Below, one piece after another: positions 3,285-12,195 of a stretch of 64,000 nucleotides of DNA. Within the stretch, counting starts at the first letter, position 1, and the number at the start of each line of letters is the position of its first letter. Made by a program: the position numbers and the translations under genes. The stretch lies in contig NC_016633.1 in the NCBI RefSeq assembly GCF_000236685.1, forward strand, positions 2,108,001 to 2,172,000. The letters run 5' to 3'. Under the pieces are notes generated by a model. It worked only from the letters and a program-made list of their open reading frames with translations, did not search any database and was not told the origin of the DNA. This DNA comes from Sphaerochaeta pleomorpha str. Grapes. GTDB lineage: Bacteria; Spirochaetota; Spirochaetia; Sphaerochaetales; Sphaerochaetaceae.

Positions 3285-5114
3285 CTACCTCCGTTTTCCC
3301 TTGGAACCTTTGTTCGTGGGAAATTGTTTTACTTTGCTTGGCTCTGGTGCCTTTTCGATTTCATTCTTCCGTTTATGGTTGGTATACATCTGTTGAAAAA
3401 TGGAAAGGGCGTTCATTACCGACCAATACAGGATCAACCCAGAAGGTGCACTATAAAGGACAAAGAAGAACATGAGAGGCATACCATAGGTCATGAATTT
3501 CATCATACCCTGCTGGGATCCTGCCGTACTTGCATTCTGGGTAATCTTCATGGAGTAAATCATACTGACCGTGTAGATTATCGGAAGAAGGTGCAATTCG
3601 TTTCCAATGAAAGGAATGGTAAAGGGGAACATGAATACCGTATCAGGCATGGACAAATCTGGAATCCAACCGGGGATAAACATGGCACCGCGCAACTCAA
3701 AGTGTTTGTTGAGCAACCCATAGAAAGCAATCAGGATAGGGAACTGGACCAACATGGGAAGACAACCGCCCATTGGGTTGATTTTTTCCTTCTTGTAAAG
3801 GGCTGCAGTCTCTTCATTCTGCTTAGCAGGATTATCCGGGTACTTTGCCTTGATTTCTTCCATTTTCGGACCGAGGGCGGACATCTTTGCAGTAGAGTCC
3901 ATACCTTTTTTTGAAATCGGGTACAGTACCAGCTTCAAAAGGAAAGTCAAGATAATGATACCGACACCATAGTTGGGAATTATCTTGTAGAACCAGTTGA
4001 GGAGGATCTTCAAAAAATTCTCCAGCCATCCAAGCCAGGAGCTGCTATCGAGTGCCTGCTCAAGGTCTAGGTTTGCAACCTTGAAGCTGTTTGAATCAGC
4101 ATCATTGTAGATAACCATATCTGCCTTGAGCTGGGGCCCTGCATAGAACCTGAAGGTATCGTTCTGAGAAGAACTCTTGATTGCCGGTCTGGAGAAATAC
4201 ATATTTGATTGCATAGCTATGGAACCTGTCGAGTCCTCGTTGAGACTCAACTGGTAAGAAGCTGCATCAGGAATTGCAATCATGGAGAAATACTTACCTG
4301 CCAGGGCAACCCAGGAAAGGGGTTTTGAAGTAGTATAGTTTCCATTGCTGAGTTTGATTTGTTTCTTTTTCGCAGAACCGTCTTCCTTGATATAGAATCT
4401 CCGATAATTGTAATTGTTATTGGGGAGACTGCTGAAGGAGGGGCCTATCTGGGGTTCAAACCCAAGGGTATAGGCAAAATTCTCATAGGACAAAGGAATT
4501 GATTTGTTTTCGCTGTTTACCAAGGCGATATCAAGCTGGAAAAGATAGTCAGCGTCTCCAAAGGTAAATGTCTTAGATAGGGTAAAAGGTTTACCGCTTA
4601 CATTTCCCTCAGAATCGAGAATCTCGAAATCCTGACTGAAGACCACTTTTTTTCCGATTACCTTATAGCGGAAGGTAGCATCGATGGGATTGGTCTTGTC
4701 ATTGCCGGCATAGAGGAGAAATGCATCGTTTTCCTGTGGGCCTTTGAATAACAGTTCGACGGGTTCGCCGTTGTCAAGGTGCTTGTTTAATTTAAACGAG
4801 GAGACAGAGGCACCGACCGGATTGAATTCAATGGTAAACACATCTGTCTTAAAAACAAATTTCCCTGTAGAGCCTTGATCGCCGACAGCTACCAAAGAAC
4901 CAGGGAGTTTAGTATTCCACGCAAGATTTGAAGATATGAGTGCATTTTCAGCCGGAGCAAGATTTGCAGTTCCTGCTGTCGAGGGAGTTATAGTTTCGAC
5001 AGTTTCTTGATAATCAGCCGTTGGGGCAGGGGTAAAAAAGGATGTCTGAATTGTCATACCAACTGTTATGACAACTACGGAAAGAACAATGGCAAGTATG
5101 GTGTTTTTGTCCAT
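3285..5114 (-). CDS. yidC: Membrane protein insertase YidC
   Basis: 609-aa insertase of the Oxa1/YidC/Alb3 family, which inserts and folds inner-membrane proteins with or without SecYEG. Residues 5-22 are a first transmembrane helix, followed by a large periplasmic beta domain (about 60-340) typical of Gram-negative YidC. The conserved core with about five helices begins near residue 360 (NFLKILLNWFYKIIPNYGVG). The C-terminus is rich in Lys/Arg, as expected for ribosome contact. It lies between rnpA and khpB in the usual rpmH-rnpA-yidC-jag order. Confidence 0.96.
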   Translation of the reverse strand: MDKNTILAIVLSVVVITVGMTIQTSFFTPAPTADYQETVETITPSTAGTANLAPAENALISSNLAWNTKLPGSLVAVGDQGSTGKFVFKTDVFTIEFNPVGASVSSFKLNKHLDNGEPVELLFKGPQENDAFLLYAGNDKTNPIDATFRYKVIGKKVVFSQDFEILDSEGNVSGKPFTLSKTFTFGDADYLFQLDIALVNSENKSIPLSYENFAYTLGFEPQIGPSFSSLPNNNYNYRRFYIKEDGSAKKKQIKLSNGNYTTSKPLSWVALAGKYFSMIAIPDAASYQLSLNEDSTGSIAMQSNMYFSRPAIKSSSQNDTFRFYAGPQLKADMVIYNDADSNSFKVANLDLEQALDSSSWLGWLENFLKILLNWFYKIIPNYGVGIIILTFLLKLVLYPISKKGMDSTAKMSALGPKMEEIKAKYPDNPAKQNEETAALYKKEKINPMGGCLPMLVQFPILIAFYGLLNKHFELRGAMFIPGWIPDLSMPDTVFMFPFTIPFIGNELHLLPIIYTVSMIYSMKITQNASTAGSQQGMMKFMTYGMPLMFFFVLYSAPSGLILYWSVMNALSIFQQMYTNHKRKNEIEKAPEPSKVKQFPTNKGSKGKRR

Positions 5115-6148: not shown

Positions 6149-7229
6149 GGTCTGAAAACCTCCCGTTTTCAACATCATACACCAATGCCTCTTCCCCTGC
6201 TAGAGAGGGAAAGTAATGTTCTTCGGGAAGAAAGGTAAAAAATGCCTGACAGTAATTCTCCATGAGGTGCAAAAACATTTCCCTTTTTTTAAAATCCAGT
6301 TCCAGAAGTACGTCATCAACAAGCAACAAGGGTTGCCTGCCTGTTTTCTTCTGGTAAAAAGCCATTTGTGCTGTCCTGAAAATCAAAGAAGCCAAACGCA
6401 ACTGTCCTGTTGATCCGGTCTGCGAAAATAAGCCGTTGTTATCCACCACATTGAAACGGTCGCGGTGTACACCGCTTGTAGTAGTCCCCAACTTCAAGTC
6501 CCTTTGCCTGGTCTGGGCAAGATGACTGATAATTTCGTCTTTGCTTGCACATTTCGACCAAGAGGGATTGTACTGGATATGAATTTCTTTGTCAGTCTGG
6601 GAAACCTGGCAATACATACCCGGGAATATCTGGTCAAACTCATAGACGGCCCGGGTCCTCTCCTGCTGGATGGAGAGACCATAGGTTGCAAGCTGTATGT
6701 CATATACATCCAACAAGGAATACCGTTCTTCCTTGATGGCCTGGTTCCTTTGTTTGAGAATCGAACGATACCGTCTCATGTCATCGAAAAACAGGGGGTT
6801 GTACATACTCATAGTCTGGTCAAAAAAGCGTCGCCTTTCTTCAGGTTCTCCCCGGACAAAGGAAATGTCATCATGGGAAAAAACAATACAGGGAATATTA
6901 TATATCAGTTCCTTCCTGTCTTTGATTTCTCTTCCATCAAGAAATACAGAACGTTTGGAATCTTTGTATTCAAGTTCCAGACGATGTTCCAAAGAAGCAT
7001 CATCGCGATACGTACCTTCCAGTTTGAAATTCTTTTGACCATGTGTTGCGAGTTCTCGCATGTACACAGTCCTGAAGGAAGATCCATAGCAGAGCGTGTA
7101 AATAGCTTCAAGAAGATTTGTTTTTCCCTGTCCGTTTGGACCTACAAGAAATACCTGTTTGCGGTCAACAGGTATTTCTTGTGGTGCAAGATTTCTGAAT
7201 TGGATCGTTTTGAGAGAAGTGAACCGCAT
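6138..7229 (-). CDS. recF: DNA replication and repair protein RecF
   Basis: 363-aa SMC-like ATPase that helps load RecA at gaps through RecFOR. It has Walker A GPNGQGKTNLLEAIY at about 30-44, an ABC-type signature region with GQLRLASL, and Walker B LLLVDDVLLELD near the C-terminus. Its start codon overlaps the stop of dnaN by one base (TAATG), so the two are translationally coupled, and dciA follows with an 11-nt overlap. Confidence 0.96.
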   Translation of the reverse strand: MRFTSLKTIQFRNLAPQEIPVDRKQVFLVGPNGQGKTNLLEAIYTLCYGSSFRTVYMRELATHGQKNFKLEGTYRDDASLEHRLELEYKDSKRSVFLDGREIKDRKELIYNIPCIVFSHDDISFVRGEPEERRRFFDQTMSMYNPLFFDDMRRYRSILKQRNQAIKEERYSLLDVYDIQLATYGLSIQQERTRAVYEFDQIFPGMYCQVSQTDKEIHIQYNPSWSKCASKDEIISHLAQTRQRDLKLGTTTSGVHRDRFNVVDNNGLFSQTGSTGQLRLASLIFRTAQMAFYQKKTGRQPLLLVDDVLLELDFKKREMFLHLMENYCQAFFTFLPEEHYFPSLAGEEALVYDVENGRFSDHEG

Positions 7230-8335
7230 CAGGCATTAGGCTGCATGGGCATGATGATATGGAAATAATCACGCTCTGCTTCTGGTTTGACAGTCATTGC
7301 CCTGGTTGGTTCTGTAAAATTGATGGAGAAATATTCACCCTCCATGACTTTCAAAGGATTGAGCAGGTAGACAAAATTCAAAGAGACCTTGCTTTCGGGA
7401 CCCTCATATTTGCAGGGGATAATTTCCTTTGCCTCGCCAAGCTCACTTTCGTCGCTGGTTACCAGCACCCCTGCCTCGCTGATATCAAGGAAAATTCTCT
7501 TTGCCTTGTTTTCGATAAGCAGTGAAACTCTTTTGAGAGCGTCCAGCATATCCTGTATGCGCATAGTTGCAGCATATTTCTGGGTCTCAGGGATTACCCT
7601 TCTGTAGTTCGGATACTGACCCTTTATCAGGTTGGAATAGAAAAACCTGTTTCCAATTTTTGCATAGATCAGGTTTTCGGTGATACACAGGTCAAGGAGT
7701 CCTTCATCGGACGAAAGTTTTTTCAATTCAATGAAAAATTTCGAAGGGATGATTACCGGGGGAAAGGAAGGGATTTCCTCTGAGAATTTTCTTTCTACGA
7801 TGGATAGTCTTCTTCCATCTGTTGCAACCATGTTCATGCCTGTAGAACTTCTTTCGAGATACAGCCCGCAAAGAAAAAATCTGGTTTCATCTTCGCTTAT
7901 AGAAAAAATTGTCTGGGTCGCCATCTCATTGAAATCCCTTTGGGAAACAGAGAAAAATGGAGTTTCGCCGATTGTCTCCATTTGGGGAAACTCGTCTCCG
8001 CTGATGGTTCTCAATTTAAAATCAATGGTCTGGTTGGTAGGCTTTATGGCAAGCATTCCGTCCTTGGTTGAAAATTGAATTTCTGAATTTGGCAGAGAGC
8101 GGAGAATATTGAGAAACCTGTCACAGTAAACGGTGATGGAACCATTCTCGATTGTCTGTACGGCAATCTCTGTACTGAAGCCGATTTTCTGGTCAGTGGC
8201 CCTGATAATGAGTTTGTCGTCAAAGGTCTCCAGATAGACATTCGAGGTAATGGAAAGTGAGTTTCTCTGACTGGTAAAATCCATTGAATATATTATCTCG
8301 TTTAGGATCGTTTCTTTGTTACAGGCGAATTTCAT
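7229..8335 (-). CDS. dnaN: DNA polymerase III beta subunit (sliding clamp)
   Basis: 368-aa ring clamp that tethers DNA polymerase III to DNA. It aligns with the three-domain beta clamp, beginning MKFACNKETILNEI and containing VATDGRRLSIVERK in domain 2; the length is normal. An AGGAG ribosome site lies 7 nt before ATG. It lies just downstream of oriC and is followed by recF with a one-base overlap. Confidence 0.96.
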   Translation of the reverse strand: MKFACNKETILNEIIYSMDFTSQRNSLSITSNVYLETFDDKLIIRATDQKIGFSTEIAVQTIENGSITVYCDRFLNILRSLPNSEIQFSTKDGMLAIKPTNQTIDFKLRTISGDEFPQMETIGETPFFSVSQRDFNEMATQTIFSISEDETRFFLCGLYLERSSTGMNMVATDGRRLSIVERKFSEEIPSFPPVIIPSKFFIELKKLSSDEGLLDLCITENLIYAKIGNRFFYSNLIKGQYPNYRRVIPETQKYAATMRIQDMLDALKRVSLLIENKAKRIFLDISEAGVLVTSDESELGEAKEIIPCKYEGPESKVSLNFVYLLNPLKVMEGEYFSINFTEPTRAMTVKPEAERDYFHIIMPMQPNA

Positions 8336-8549
8336 AGACTACTCCTAGTTTATTATAAAAATTAGTAATAATAGTAATAATAGCACGATTTCTGTGGATA
8401 ACTCGATAATTCATTATACAATAATCGCTTAAATTTTGCTATCTTGTGGACAACTTCCTGAGTTATCCACAATTGATGCACAGGCAAATTTGGCTATCCA
8501 CAGGCAGAAGTACTTATCCACAGGCTATCCATAGGTTATCCACAGGAAA
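8336..8549. other. oriC: Chromosomal replication origin oriC
   Basis: The 214-bp dnaA-dnaN gap has at least seven DnaA-box-like 9-mers: TTATCCACA at 8463, 8514 and 8536; CTATCCACA at 8494; CTATCCATA at 8525; and, inverted, TGTGGATAA at 8393 and TGTGGACAA at 8445. An AT-rich stretch (8341-8390) next to the leftmost box is the likely unwinding element. Gene orientation diverges from here, as expected for bidirectional replication. Confidence 0.93.
8363..8383 (+). promoter_or_regulatory. DnaA-trio-like repeat of the origin unwinding element
   Basis: Seven consecutive trinucleotides of the form TAG/TAA: the 9-mer TAGTAATAA twice, then TAG. Read 3' to 5' away from the DnaA box at 8393 they are GAT/AAT triplets, which matches the DnaA-trio motif known from Bacillus subtilis that lets DnaA form a filament on single-stranded DNA. 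The 9-nt gap to the box corresponds to the usual GC-containing spacer. Confidence 0.72.
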
Positions 8550-9968
8550 TTACTTCTTACTATTTGTTAAGTCCCTCTTTAATTTCTGGATGGTATTGCT
8601 GAAGGCTTCATCACCTTTCATCAATGATACGATACGAGCAAAAGCATGCATGACTGTGGTGTGATCCCGTCCCCCGAACTCGGTTCCTATCTCGGTTGTA
8701 GAGAATTCAGTAATGTCCCTGGAGAGATACATTGCAATCTGTCTCGGCTGTATAAGGGACTTGTTTTTCTTCTTTCCCTTGATCTCGAAAGAGCTGACAT
8801 TGAAGTATTCTCCGACCACTTTGATTATGGTGTCTATCGAGAGCGCTTGGTTCCCGTTCGCTGCAATGGAAGGAAGGGTGCCCAGTAATTCTTTGGCTTT
8901 TTCCAAGGAAAGATCCTGGTCGAGTAGTTCGCTGTAGGCAATGAGCTTCGTAAGCGAGGACTCGAGATCCCTTACATTTGTACATACGTTCACGGCAATG
9001 TAATTGAGAATATCCTCACTCATCGCACTGGCTCTCTTTTTTGTCTTGCTTTTCAAAATAGCCATTCTTGTCTCATAATTCGGTGGCTGCAAGTCTACAT
9101 TGAGACCTCTTTCGAACCTTGAGCTGAGTCGGTCTGTAATGTTTTTCAATTCGCTGATAGGTCTATCACACGTGAAAACCATTTGCTTTTTCGACTCGTA
9201 GAGATTGTTGAACGTATGGAAAAGTTCCTCCTGGGTGCTGTCTTTTCCCTGGAGAAAATGTATGTCGTCTATGAGCAAAACGTCGACTTTTCTGAATTTG
9301 TTTTTGAATCCCTGGGTCCTCTGGGCCCCAATGGATTCAATGAATTCATTAGTAAACATTTCGGCGGTGACATACATGACTTTCAATTCCGGGGTATTAT
9401 CGATGATATAATTCCCAATTGAATTGAGTAGGTGGGTTTTTCCCATGCCTACCCCCCCGTAGATGAGACAAGGGTTGTAGCTGACCCCAGGGTTTTTTGC
9501 AATTGCCAGGCTGGCATTGTAGGCAAACGTACTGTTGTCACCGATTACGAAATTTGAAAACTCATAGGAAGGGTTGAGGTTGCAATCGGTTTTCATTTTC
9601 AAATTTTTTTCAACCGAGATTTTTTGTTTCGGAATCTGTATTACAGGGGCTTCCTGTCTTGGTGCTTTTTCTCCGGGGTCTTGCTTTTTCCTTTCTTCAA
9701 TTTCCACCCGGGACTTTACGATGAAATCGACACTGACTTCCTCACCGGTCAATTCGCTGAGCGTATTGACGATCAGATCCCTGTACCGTGAGATTACCGT
9801 ATCGAGAATAAATTGGCTTGCACCGGCTAAAATGACCTTCCTGTCATCTGACCCGATGTAGACGATACGATTAAACCAGGTCGTATATTCCTGTTCCGGA
9901 AGAGTCTCTTTTATACGTGAGGCTGTCTCTTGCCAGAATTCAAAATAGTTGCTTTTTGAATCAGTCAT
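8550..9968 (-). CDS. dnaA: Chromosomal replication initiator protein DnaA
   Basis: 472-aa initiator AAA+ ATPase. Domain I (residues 1-85) has the WFNRIVYIGSDDRKVIL region that contacts DnaB. Domain III carries Walker A GGVGMGKTHLL and Walker B LLIDDIHFLQGK. Domain IV ends with the DNA-binding signature GGRDHTTVMHAF, which reads the DnaA boxes. The Lys/Glu/Pro-rich linker (about 90-130) is domain II. The gene flanks oriC and is divergent from gyrB. Confidence 0.97.
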   Translation of the reverse strand: MTDSKSNYFEFWQETASRIKETLPEQEYTTWFNRIVYIGSDDRKVILAGASQFILDTVISRYRDLIVNTLSELTGEEVSVDFIVKSRVEIEERKKQDPGEKAPRQEAPVIQIPKQKISVEKNLKMKTDCNLNPSYEFSNFVIGDNSTFAYNASLAIAKNPGVSYNPCLIYGGVGMGKTHLLNSIGNYIIDNTPELKVMYVTAEMFTNEFIESIGAQRTQGFKNKFRKVDVLLIDDIHFLQGKDSTQEELFHTFNNLYESKKQMVFTCDRPISELKNITDRLSSRFERGLNVDLQPPNYETRMAILKSKTKKRASAMSEDILNYIAVNVCTNVRDLESSLTKLIAYSELLDQDLSLEKAKELLGTLPSIAANGNQALSIDTIIKVVGEYFNVSSFEIKGKKKNKSLIQPRQIAMYLSRDITEFSTTEIGTEFGGRDHTTVMHAFARIVSLMKGDEAFSNTIQKLKRDLTNSKK

Positions 9969-10087
9969 GGGACCATTTTACTCTCAAGGTCAACACCTTG
10001 CAATACTAGATTGGCTACCTTGTGAAAACGATTATTAAATATATATATTATAACTAATTAAAAATGGATGTTTATTTTATGGTCCTA

Positions 10088-10116
10088 TTGCAAAACCCTC
10101 CTTTTTCTGGTATGAT
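10088..10116 (+). promoter_or_regulatory. Sigma70-like promoter of gyrB-gyrA
   Basis: TTGCAA (10088-10093), 17-bp spacer, TATGAT (10111-10116). It gives a leader of about 45 nt before gyrB. The upstream region 10030-10075 is a very AT-rich run of alternating TA, which may serve both as an UP-like element and as a supercoiling-sensitive spacer between dnaA and gyrB. Confidence 0.68.
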
Positions 10117-10164
10117 TGATAAGAATCGGCGTAAGCCTTTTTTTATTATTGCATAAGGATATAA

Positions 10165-12195
<2,031 letters not shown>

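Follow-up and report, generated by a model that had tools for sequence, protein, structure and literature searches.

A putative DnaA-trio ladder between dnaA and dnaN in Sphaerochaeta pleomorpha and in other spirochaetes

The sequence considered here is a 64,000-nucleotide stretch of the Sphaerochaeta pleomorpha str. Grapes chromosome (hereafter the window; NC_016633.1, positions 2,108,001 to 2,172,000). Near its left end, dnaA and dnaN are separated by a 214-bp gap, with gyrB and gyrA located to the right. Gene names were read from translations, and those of dnaN and dnaA were also backed by sequence searches. The features relevant to the discussion below are as follows, in window coordinates.

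7229-8335, minus strand: dnaN
8336-8549, no strand: dnaA-dnaN intergenic region, putative oriC
8350-8379, no strand: weakest 30-bp duplex of the gap, likely the first site of opening
8363-8383, plus strand: putative DnaA-trio array of seven trios, with trio #1 at 8381-8383 (from the run itself, its uniqueness and its conservation)
8384-8392, no strand: 9-bp spacer separating the array from its box, with low conservation (69%) in the alignment
8393-8401, minus strand: proximal DnaA box TTATCCACA, facing the array and invariant in 24 aligned regions of the genus
8445-8453, minus strand: DnaA box TTGTCCACA, 1 mismatch, co-oriented with the proximal box
8463-8471, plus strand: DnaA box TTATCCACA, perfect
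8494-8502, plus strand: DnaA box CTATCCACA, 1 mismatch
8514-8522, plus strand: DnaA box TTATCCACA, perfect
8536-8544, plus strand: DnaA box TTATCCACA, perfect
8550-9968, minus strand: dnaA

The preliminary description of this DNA had singled out seven consecutive TAG/TAA triplets with a 9-bp period beside an inverted DnaA box, and these elements are confirmed. The sequence TAGTAATAATAGTAATAATAG at 8363-8383 of the plus strand reads TAG TAA TAA TAG TAA TAA TAG and has a period of 9 (TAGTAATAA). Nine base pairs away, 8393-8401 holds the inverted box TGTGGATAA, which matches TTATCCACA perfectly on the minus strand. Read from dnaA to dnaN, the order is TTATCCACA GAAATCGTG CTA TTA TTA CTA TTA TTA CTA. 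The run is unique, as (TAR)x7 occurs once in the whole genome (one contig of 3,590,853 bases; 0 in a backwards control), while 5e-5 per genome would be expected under an order-3 Markov model whose training set was the surrounding 400 kb. Even (TAR)x5 yields just three overlapping matches genome-wide, all at this site, with 1 in the backwards control.

Rules for predicting the basal unwinding system (BUS) of an origin have been printed (PMC8287927). As given in the text available from that paper, they call for a box with at most two mismatches, a spacer of at most 16 and at least three trios of the form 3'-NAN-5', with a second tandem box and a GC-rich spacer being usual and not required. The window array would be predicted as a BUS by these rules: there are seven consecutive 3'-GAT/AAT-5' trios, and a perfect box lies 9 bp from the first of them (0-16 bp being allowed). 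Its location in a putative origin is indicated by the dnaA-dnaN gap, the densest box cluster and the change of skew. Box orientation and trio polarity are Bacillus-like, and the same order is present in Bacillaceae loci (L158, L160, L161, L163). A tandem co-oriented second box and a GC-rich spacer are absent at the window array; the next co-oriented box begins 43 bp beyond (8445), and inspection of GAAATCGTG by eye finds no box-like 9-mer. The plus strand, on which 5'-TAG/TAA-3' corresponds to 3'-GAT/AAT-5', is the one that DnaA would be expected to bind.

The wider setting is also consistent with an origin. The gap is the densest cluster of DnaA boxes in the window, with 6 of the 17 that have at most one mismatch and 4/4 of the perfect ones. 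In 20-kb blocks, GC skew is negative in 10/10 to the left of the locus and positive in 9/10 to the right. The cumulative minimum falls at window position 3300, which is 5 kb from the array, and skew thus locates the origin only within several kilobases. The 8350-8379 stretch is among the weakest 0.02% of 30-bp stretches in the window, and the weakest 21-, 30- and 50-bp duplexes lie upstream of dnaA and not at the array. The weakest 50-bp duplex, at 10031-10080 between dnaA and gyrB, carries no DnaA box with at most one mismatch, and none was found at that threshold between 8545 and 11000.

Conservation within the genus is strong. DnaN was found in 25 of 26 genomes, and all 25 upstream regions carry at least four consecutive YTA triplets (at least five in 20/25). 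Twenty-four of these regions could be aligned; L005, whose contig breaks off within the box, was excluded. Identity to the window is 96% across the trio block, where 15 of 21 columns never vary, zero indels occur and 7/7 middle trio bases are unchanged. What changes there are affect the first base (C/T, or G/A on the trio strand) in three trios and the third base (A to G) in three. The proximal box is invariant, identity in the spacer is 69% and that in neighboring stretches is 71-74%. The spacer measures 9 nt in 24/24 boxes, and trio #1 is CTA (3'-GAT-5') in 25/25 arrays. To give a sense of divergence, DnaN and DnaA of Sphaerochaeta sp. L174 are 80% and 87% identical to those of the window, and DnaN of S. 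halotolerans (L164) is 75% identical. The strict regularity of the triplets, to which the preliminary description had drawn attention, is real in the window as a 9-bp period. No evident meaning could be given to it, as the period is not kept in the genus or class: some genomes of the genus read CTA TTA TTA CTA CTA TTA CTA, or include TTG/CTG.

We extended the survey to 392 spirochaete genomes, of which 363 gave a DnaN match. From these, 199 regions were assembled, comprising 148 among the matches listed (30 + 118), 30 picked over families and 21 extra from the genus itself; two further sets of loci (n = 8 and n = 28) lie outside this total. In 49/199 regions the dnaA stop was not found by motif, and up to 300 nt upstream of dnaN was used, while contig ends cut the region in L005, L068, L073 and L112. 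At least four consecutive YTA triplets occur on the expected strand in 122/199 regions and on the opposite strand in 1, with 0.59 expected from dinucleotide shuffles. The corresponding counts for at least five are 95/199 and 0, with 0.03 expected. These counts span related genomes and are not independent events. Among families of Spirochaetia, 15/19 (from f1-f9, f11, f12 and f14-f21) include at least one genome with at least four YTA triplets, as do 4/15 families outside the class, mostly represented by one genome each. The sequence is very probably a spirochaete counterpart of the element described in Bacillus, as had been proposed, and it is not an isolated example. Under a more tolerant scoring scheme, arrays are present in 150/199 regions and their commonest length is six triplets (77/150), the number of trios engaged, along with seven protomers, in the B. 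subtilis structure (PMC10721633, available text).

Four consecutive YTA triplets are absent in 77/199 regions, and even a tolerant array is absent in 49/199. The latter include 3/3 regions of family f34 and 4/5 of f29, whose fifth member (L187) has a weak array and no box. In the loci of these two families (L184-L190 and L193), neither a trio array linked to a box nor a dnaA stop was found in the sequence upstream of dnaN. The origins of these lineages may lie elsewhere than upstream of dnaN.

Of the 150 arrays, 84 have a box (at most one mismatch) no more than 16 bp away. Every one of these boxes is found on the dnaA side, turned toward its array, with 0 inverted and 0 on the far side; the other 66/150 arrays have no such box at that distance. 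Spacers of the 84 box-linked arrays are 12 nt in 40 cases, 9 nt in 27 (24 from the genus itself), 13 nt in 6, 4 nt in 5, and 10, 11, 15 or 5 nt in 6. The distance from array to dnaN ranges from 26 to 262 nt across lineages. Because the distance to the box is nearly fixed and that to dnaN is variable, the array appears to be tied to the box and not to the gene. In family f4 (L016, L018, L030, L034, L044, L052, L063, L065), the array is 125-237 nt from the dnaN start and the box is 11-12 nt away, and these loci are the clearest cases of an array moving with its box.

In spirochaetes of other genera, spacers are most often 12 nt long, and about six trios then follow. Other spirochaetes often have a second box-like 9-mer that starts 8 bp after the first, together with a GC-rich end (gccc, ggcc). 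The layout in the genus, with its 9-nt spacer, no second box and mostly seven trios, amounts to one extra trio taking up the three spacer positions nearest the array. GAT is reported in the available text of PMC8287927 to be preferred next to the box, and CTA at trio #1 throughout the genus agrees with this preference. The distribution in other spirochaetes (TTA in 71/125, CTA in 54/125) is not in line with it.

When all 392 genomes were searched for a box followed by four trios, 10 matched. In 9 of these, the match lies immediately upstream of dnaN; in the other, G035, it is a plain TTA repeat far from that genome's dnaN. A backwards control matched only G136, twice. The pattern of TTATCCACA, 4-16 nt and seven YTA triplets was also sought more broadly, across 84,980 species of bacteria and archaea (a set from which the window's own record may be missing), and 31 loci were returned. 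Twenty-three are between dnaA and dnaN in the orientation of the window, and 4 more adjoin whichever one of the two genes tblastn detects there (dnaA in L161 and L165, dnaN in L159 and L175). These 27 origin-type loci include Bacillaceae, Paenibacillus, Clostridia and eight records named Sphaerochaeta, Sphaerochaetaceae or Spirochaetales. The remaining 4/31 (L156, L162, L173, L176) are without this setting. In L156, a Patescibacteria contig, a box and seven CTA triplets at 1496-1530 lie about 3 kb from dnaA, on the opposite strand and outside the dnaA-dnaN gap.

The orientation predicted for DnaA-trios in the preliminary description holds in that the polarity matches B. subtilis, a comparison made through Bacillaceae loci and published strand numbering, and the arrangement recurs across the class and in Bacillaceae, Paenibacillus and Clostridia. 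In the available text of PMC10721633, the B. subtilis trio strand is numbered T16 A17 G18 (trio #1), then G19 G20 toward the boxes. We read this as 5'-TAG-GG-box-3', to be compared with 5'-...TAA TAA TAG-(9 nt)-TGTGGATAA-3' in the window.

Of the 472 residues of the window DnaA, 7-467 can be aligned with B. subtilis DnaA (8btg), and the domain IV motif GGRDHTTV is the same in both. The trio-reading residues reported in the accessible part of PMC10721633 are N187, I190, I193, R202 and E228, with R202 contacting guanine. At these positions, the window protein has N, I, I, K and E, such that four of the five are identical. In the 50/150 arrays for which residue 202 could be read (46 K, 4 R), its identity gave no signal of covariation with how often G is the first base of a trio (mean C share 0.49 vs 0.53).

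Middle-base changes were also considered as a test of the published A/C preference. Among 887 triplets in the 150 arrays, the middle T of the complementary strand is replaced by A in 9, G in 8 and C in 1, and these changes are so rare, and so concentrated in certain lineages, that they do not discriminate. Several arrays (L045, L048, L009, L051 and others) contain CGA or TGA, in which the middle A of the trio strand has become C, and TAA or CAA, in which it has become T, are as frequent. A change of the middle A to C is reported to still work in B. subtilis (PMC10721633, available text).

The natural comparison is with the B. subtilis BUS, which consists of DnaA-boxes #6/#7 and six DnaA-trios, as described in the accessible portions of PMC6669920 and PMC10721633. 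On the basis of those portions, the two share the dnaA-dnaN location, a box facing the array, trio polarity, a 3'-GAT-5' trio #1 and a mixture of GAT and AAT trios. The window differs in having seven trios rather than six, a 9-bp spacer, K at the position of R202, and a single proximal box with neither a tandem second box nor a GC-rich spacer end. In B. subtilis, reversal of box #6 or #6/7 is reported to inactivate the origin region (PMC6669920, available text). The oriC2 trio of Clostridioides difficile, 5'-CACCTACTACTATTACTACTATGA-3', is like that of the window a YTA ladder downstream of dnaA and before dnaN; three boxes adjoin it and a second box cluster is present upstream of dnaA, as far as the available text of PMC7561715 describes. 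Unlike C. difficile, the window has no box with at most one mismatch upstream of dnaA as far as 11000.

We consider it very probable, at roughly 0.88, that the 8363-8383 run serves as the single-strand DnaA-trio ladder of the chromosome's BUS. By analogy with B. subtilis and other species tested in print, from which we infer DnaA binding, oligomerization and strand separation, domain IV of DnaA would bind the double-stranded box at 8393-8401, and an oligomer of ATP-DnaA would extend across the 9-bp spacer onto the plus strand. Its protomers would then capture the triplets one after another, such that the duplex is stretched and separated at 8363-8383. Opening (8350-8383) would proceed into the A+T-rich stretch toward dnaN, where the helicase might be loaded. 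Several observations count against this reading. Four of the seven trios are 3'-AAT-5', which in B. subtilis are reported to be less effective when all six are of this kind (PMC10721633, available text). Also to be counted are K in place of R202, the weakest duplexes upstream of dnaA, the skew minimum 5 kb away, the 77/199 regions without four YTA triplets, the 66/150 arrays without a nearby box and the match of the G136 control.

As to where opening occurs, the chief alternative is the A+T-rich stretch at 10031-10080. As in an origin of bipartite type, the DNA might truly unwind there, upstream of dnaA, with the triplets assisting or idle. At lengths of 21, 30 and 50 bp, the weakest duplex in the window is found there; at 75 bp, the two places are about equal. 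We regard this as unlikely, however, given that the interval from 8545 to 11000 is free of boxes with at most one mismatch and that the triplets are kept across many lineages. Moreover, DnaA-dependent opening in C. difficile has been located at oriC2, on the side with the trio, even though neither region is dispensable there (PMC7561715, available text).

The proximity of the window array to dnaN, 27 bp upstream of its start, might instead suggest a promoter or leader element of that gene or an antisense array of stop codons rather than an origin element. Such a role seems very unlikely when arrays of different lineages stand anywhere from 26 to 262 nt from dnaN yet at a nearly constant distance from the box, and when the identical order of box and array is found at dnaA-dnaN of Firmicutes. 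It is scarcely credible that the triplets are a neutral microsatellite which lies at oriC by accident. They are indeed regular, and both G035 and two Methanobrevibacter matches to box and YTA resemble plain TTA repeats. However, the run is unique in the genome, 24 regions of the genus show zero indels and zero middle-base changes, the strand bias is 122 to 1 and the box spacing is fixed.

An additional result concerns a family (f5) that appears to be Borreliaceae-like, with genomes or main contigs of about 0.9 Mb and dnaN near their middle. Its loci (L199, L202, L204, L205, L207-L210 and L260-L287) were examined over the 200 nt after dnaA. In eight f5 dnaA-dnaN gaps, TTATCCACA with at most one mismatch is found on neither strand, and AATTN(A/G)ACA occurs 30 times on the dnaA-to-dnaN strand and 0 times on the opposite strand, with about 1 expected per strand. 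Over the 200 nt in 36 genomes, the counts are 119 and 0, again with no standard box. All 36 have a tandem of such elements 8 bp apart, ending exactly 5 nt before the first two trios. The tandem is AATTNRACA twice in 23/36, and the second copy is AATCAAACA in 13/36; one sequence form of a tandem copy of the candidate box is AATTAGACA. The trio arrays are exact over six trios in 16/36 and degenerate in the others, with the lowest scores (14-15 of 18) hardly above those of the opposite strand (12-14). Of four genomes searched for a strict form of the tandem, three have it a single time, at this position (controls 0), and the strict tandem with an array was found in 9/16 (controls 0).

The DnaA proteins of this family carry GGKTHST in 36/36 genomes, compared with GGRDHTTV in the window DnaA. 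According to the available text of PMC9879097, DnaA of Borrelia burgdorferi differs in base-contacting residues (T451, S453) and may recognize unique sequences; it binds the dnaA-dnaN region, where two DnaA boxes have been hypothesized, and the borrelial box was still being sought in 2022. Among the open-access papers that a search from 2022 on returned, PMC9879097 is, judged by title, the sole one on the subject. We propose AATTNRACA as a specific candidate for this box. Somewhat more speculatively, we lean toward the view that the ladder is a fixed origin core in spirochaetes and that the double-strand box is exchangeable. Borreliaceae would then have acquired AATTNRACA as their box along with the divergent DnaA reading motif GGKTHST and kept the ladder in position, in degenerate form in some genomes, and the ladder in the genus of the window would have gained one trio toward the box, replacing the GC-rich spacer end.

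The DnaA-trio is an element of a kind already known. A BUS has been predicted in 1,755 of 2,070 origins (85%) and the system called broadly conserved (PMC8287927, available text), and DoriC 10 and Ori-Finder 2022 annotate trios automatically, as described in the accessible text (PMC6323995, PMC10225481). The window array may already be listed in DoriC or in the supplementary tables of PMC8287927, the main text of which does not name spirochaetes in its available part. In the open-access literature, we found no paper joining the DnaA-trio with spirochaetes, and papers on Sphaerochaeta and oriC are, by their titles, on other subjects. What is new is therefore a well-supported spirochaete member of this class, with the support coming from comparative data.

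These findings would place many spirochaetes among the organisms that open their origins from box to trio, through comparative evidence with a strand control and not through one sequence. The near-fixed spacing with its step of one trio (9 versus 12 nt) offers a testable rule for the passage of DnaA from the box to the ladder. Finally, with the trio ladder as a landmark, a concrete candidate emerges for the site that DnaA recognizes in the Lyme-disease group.
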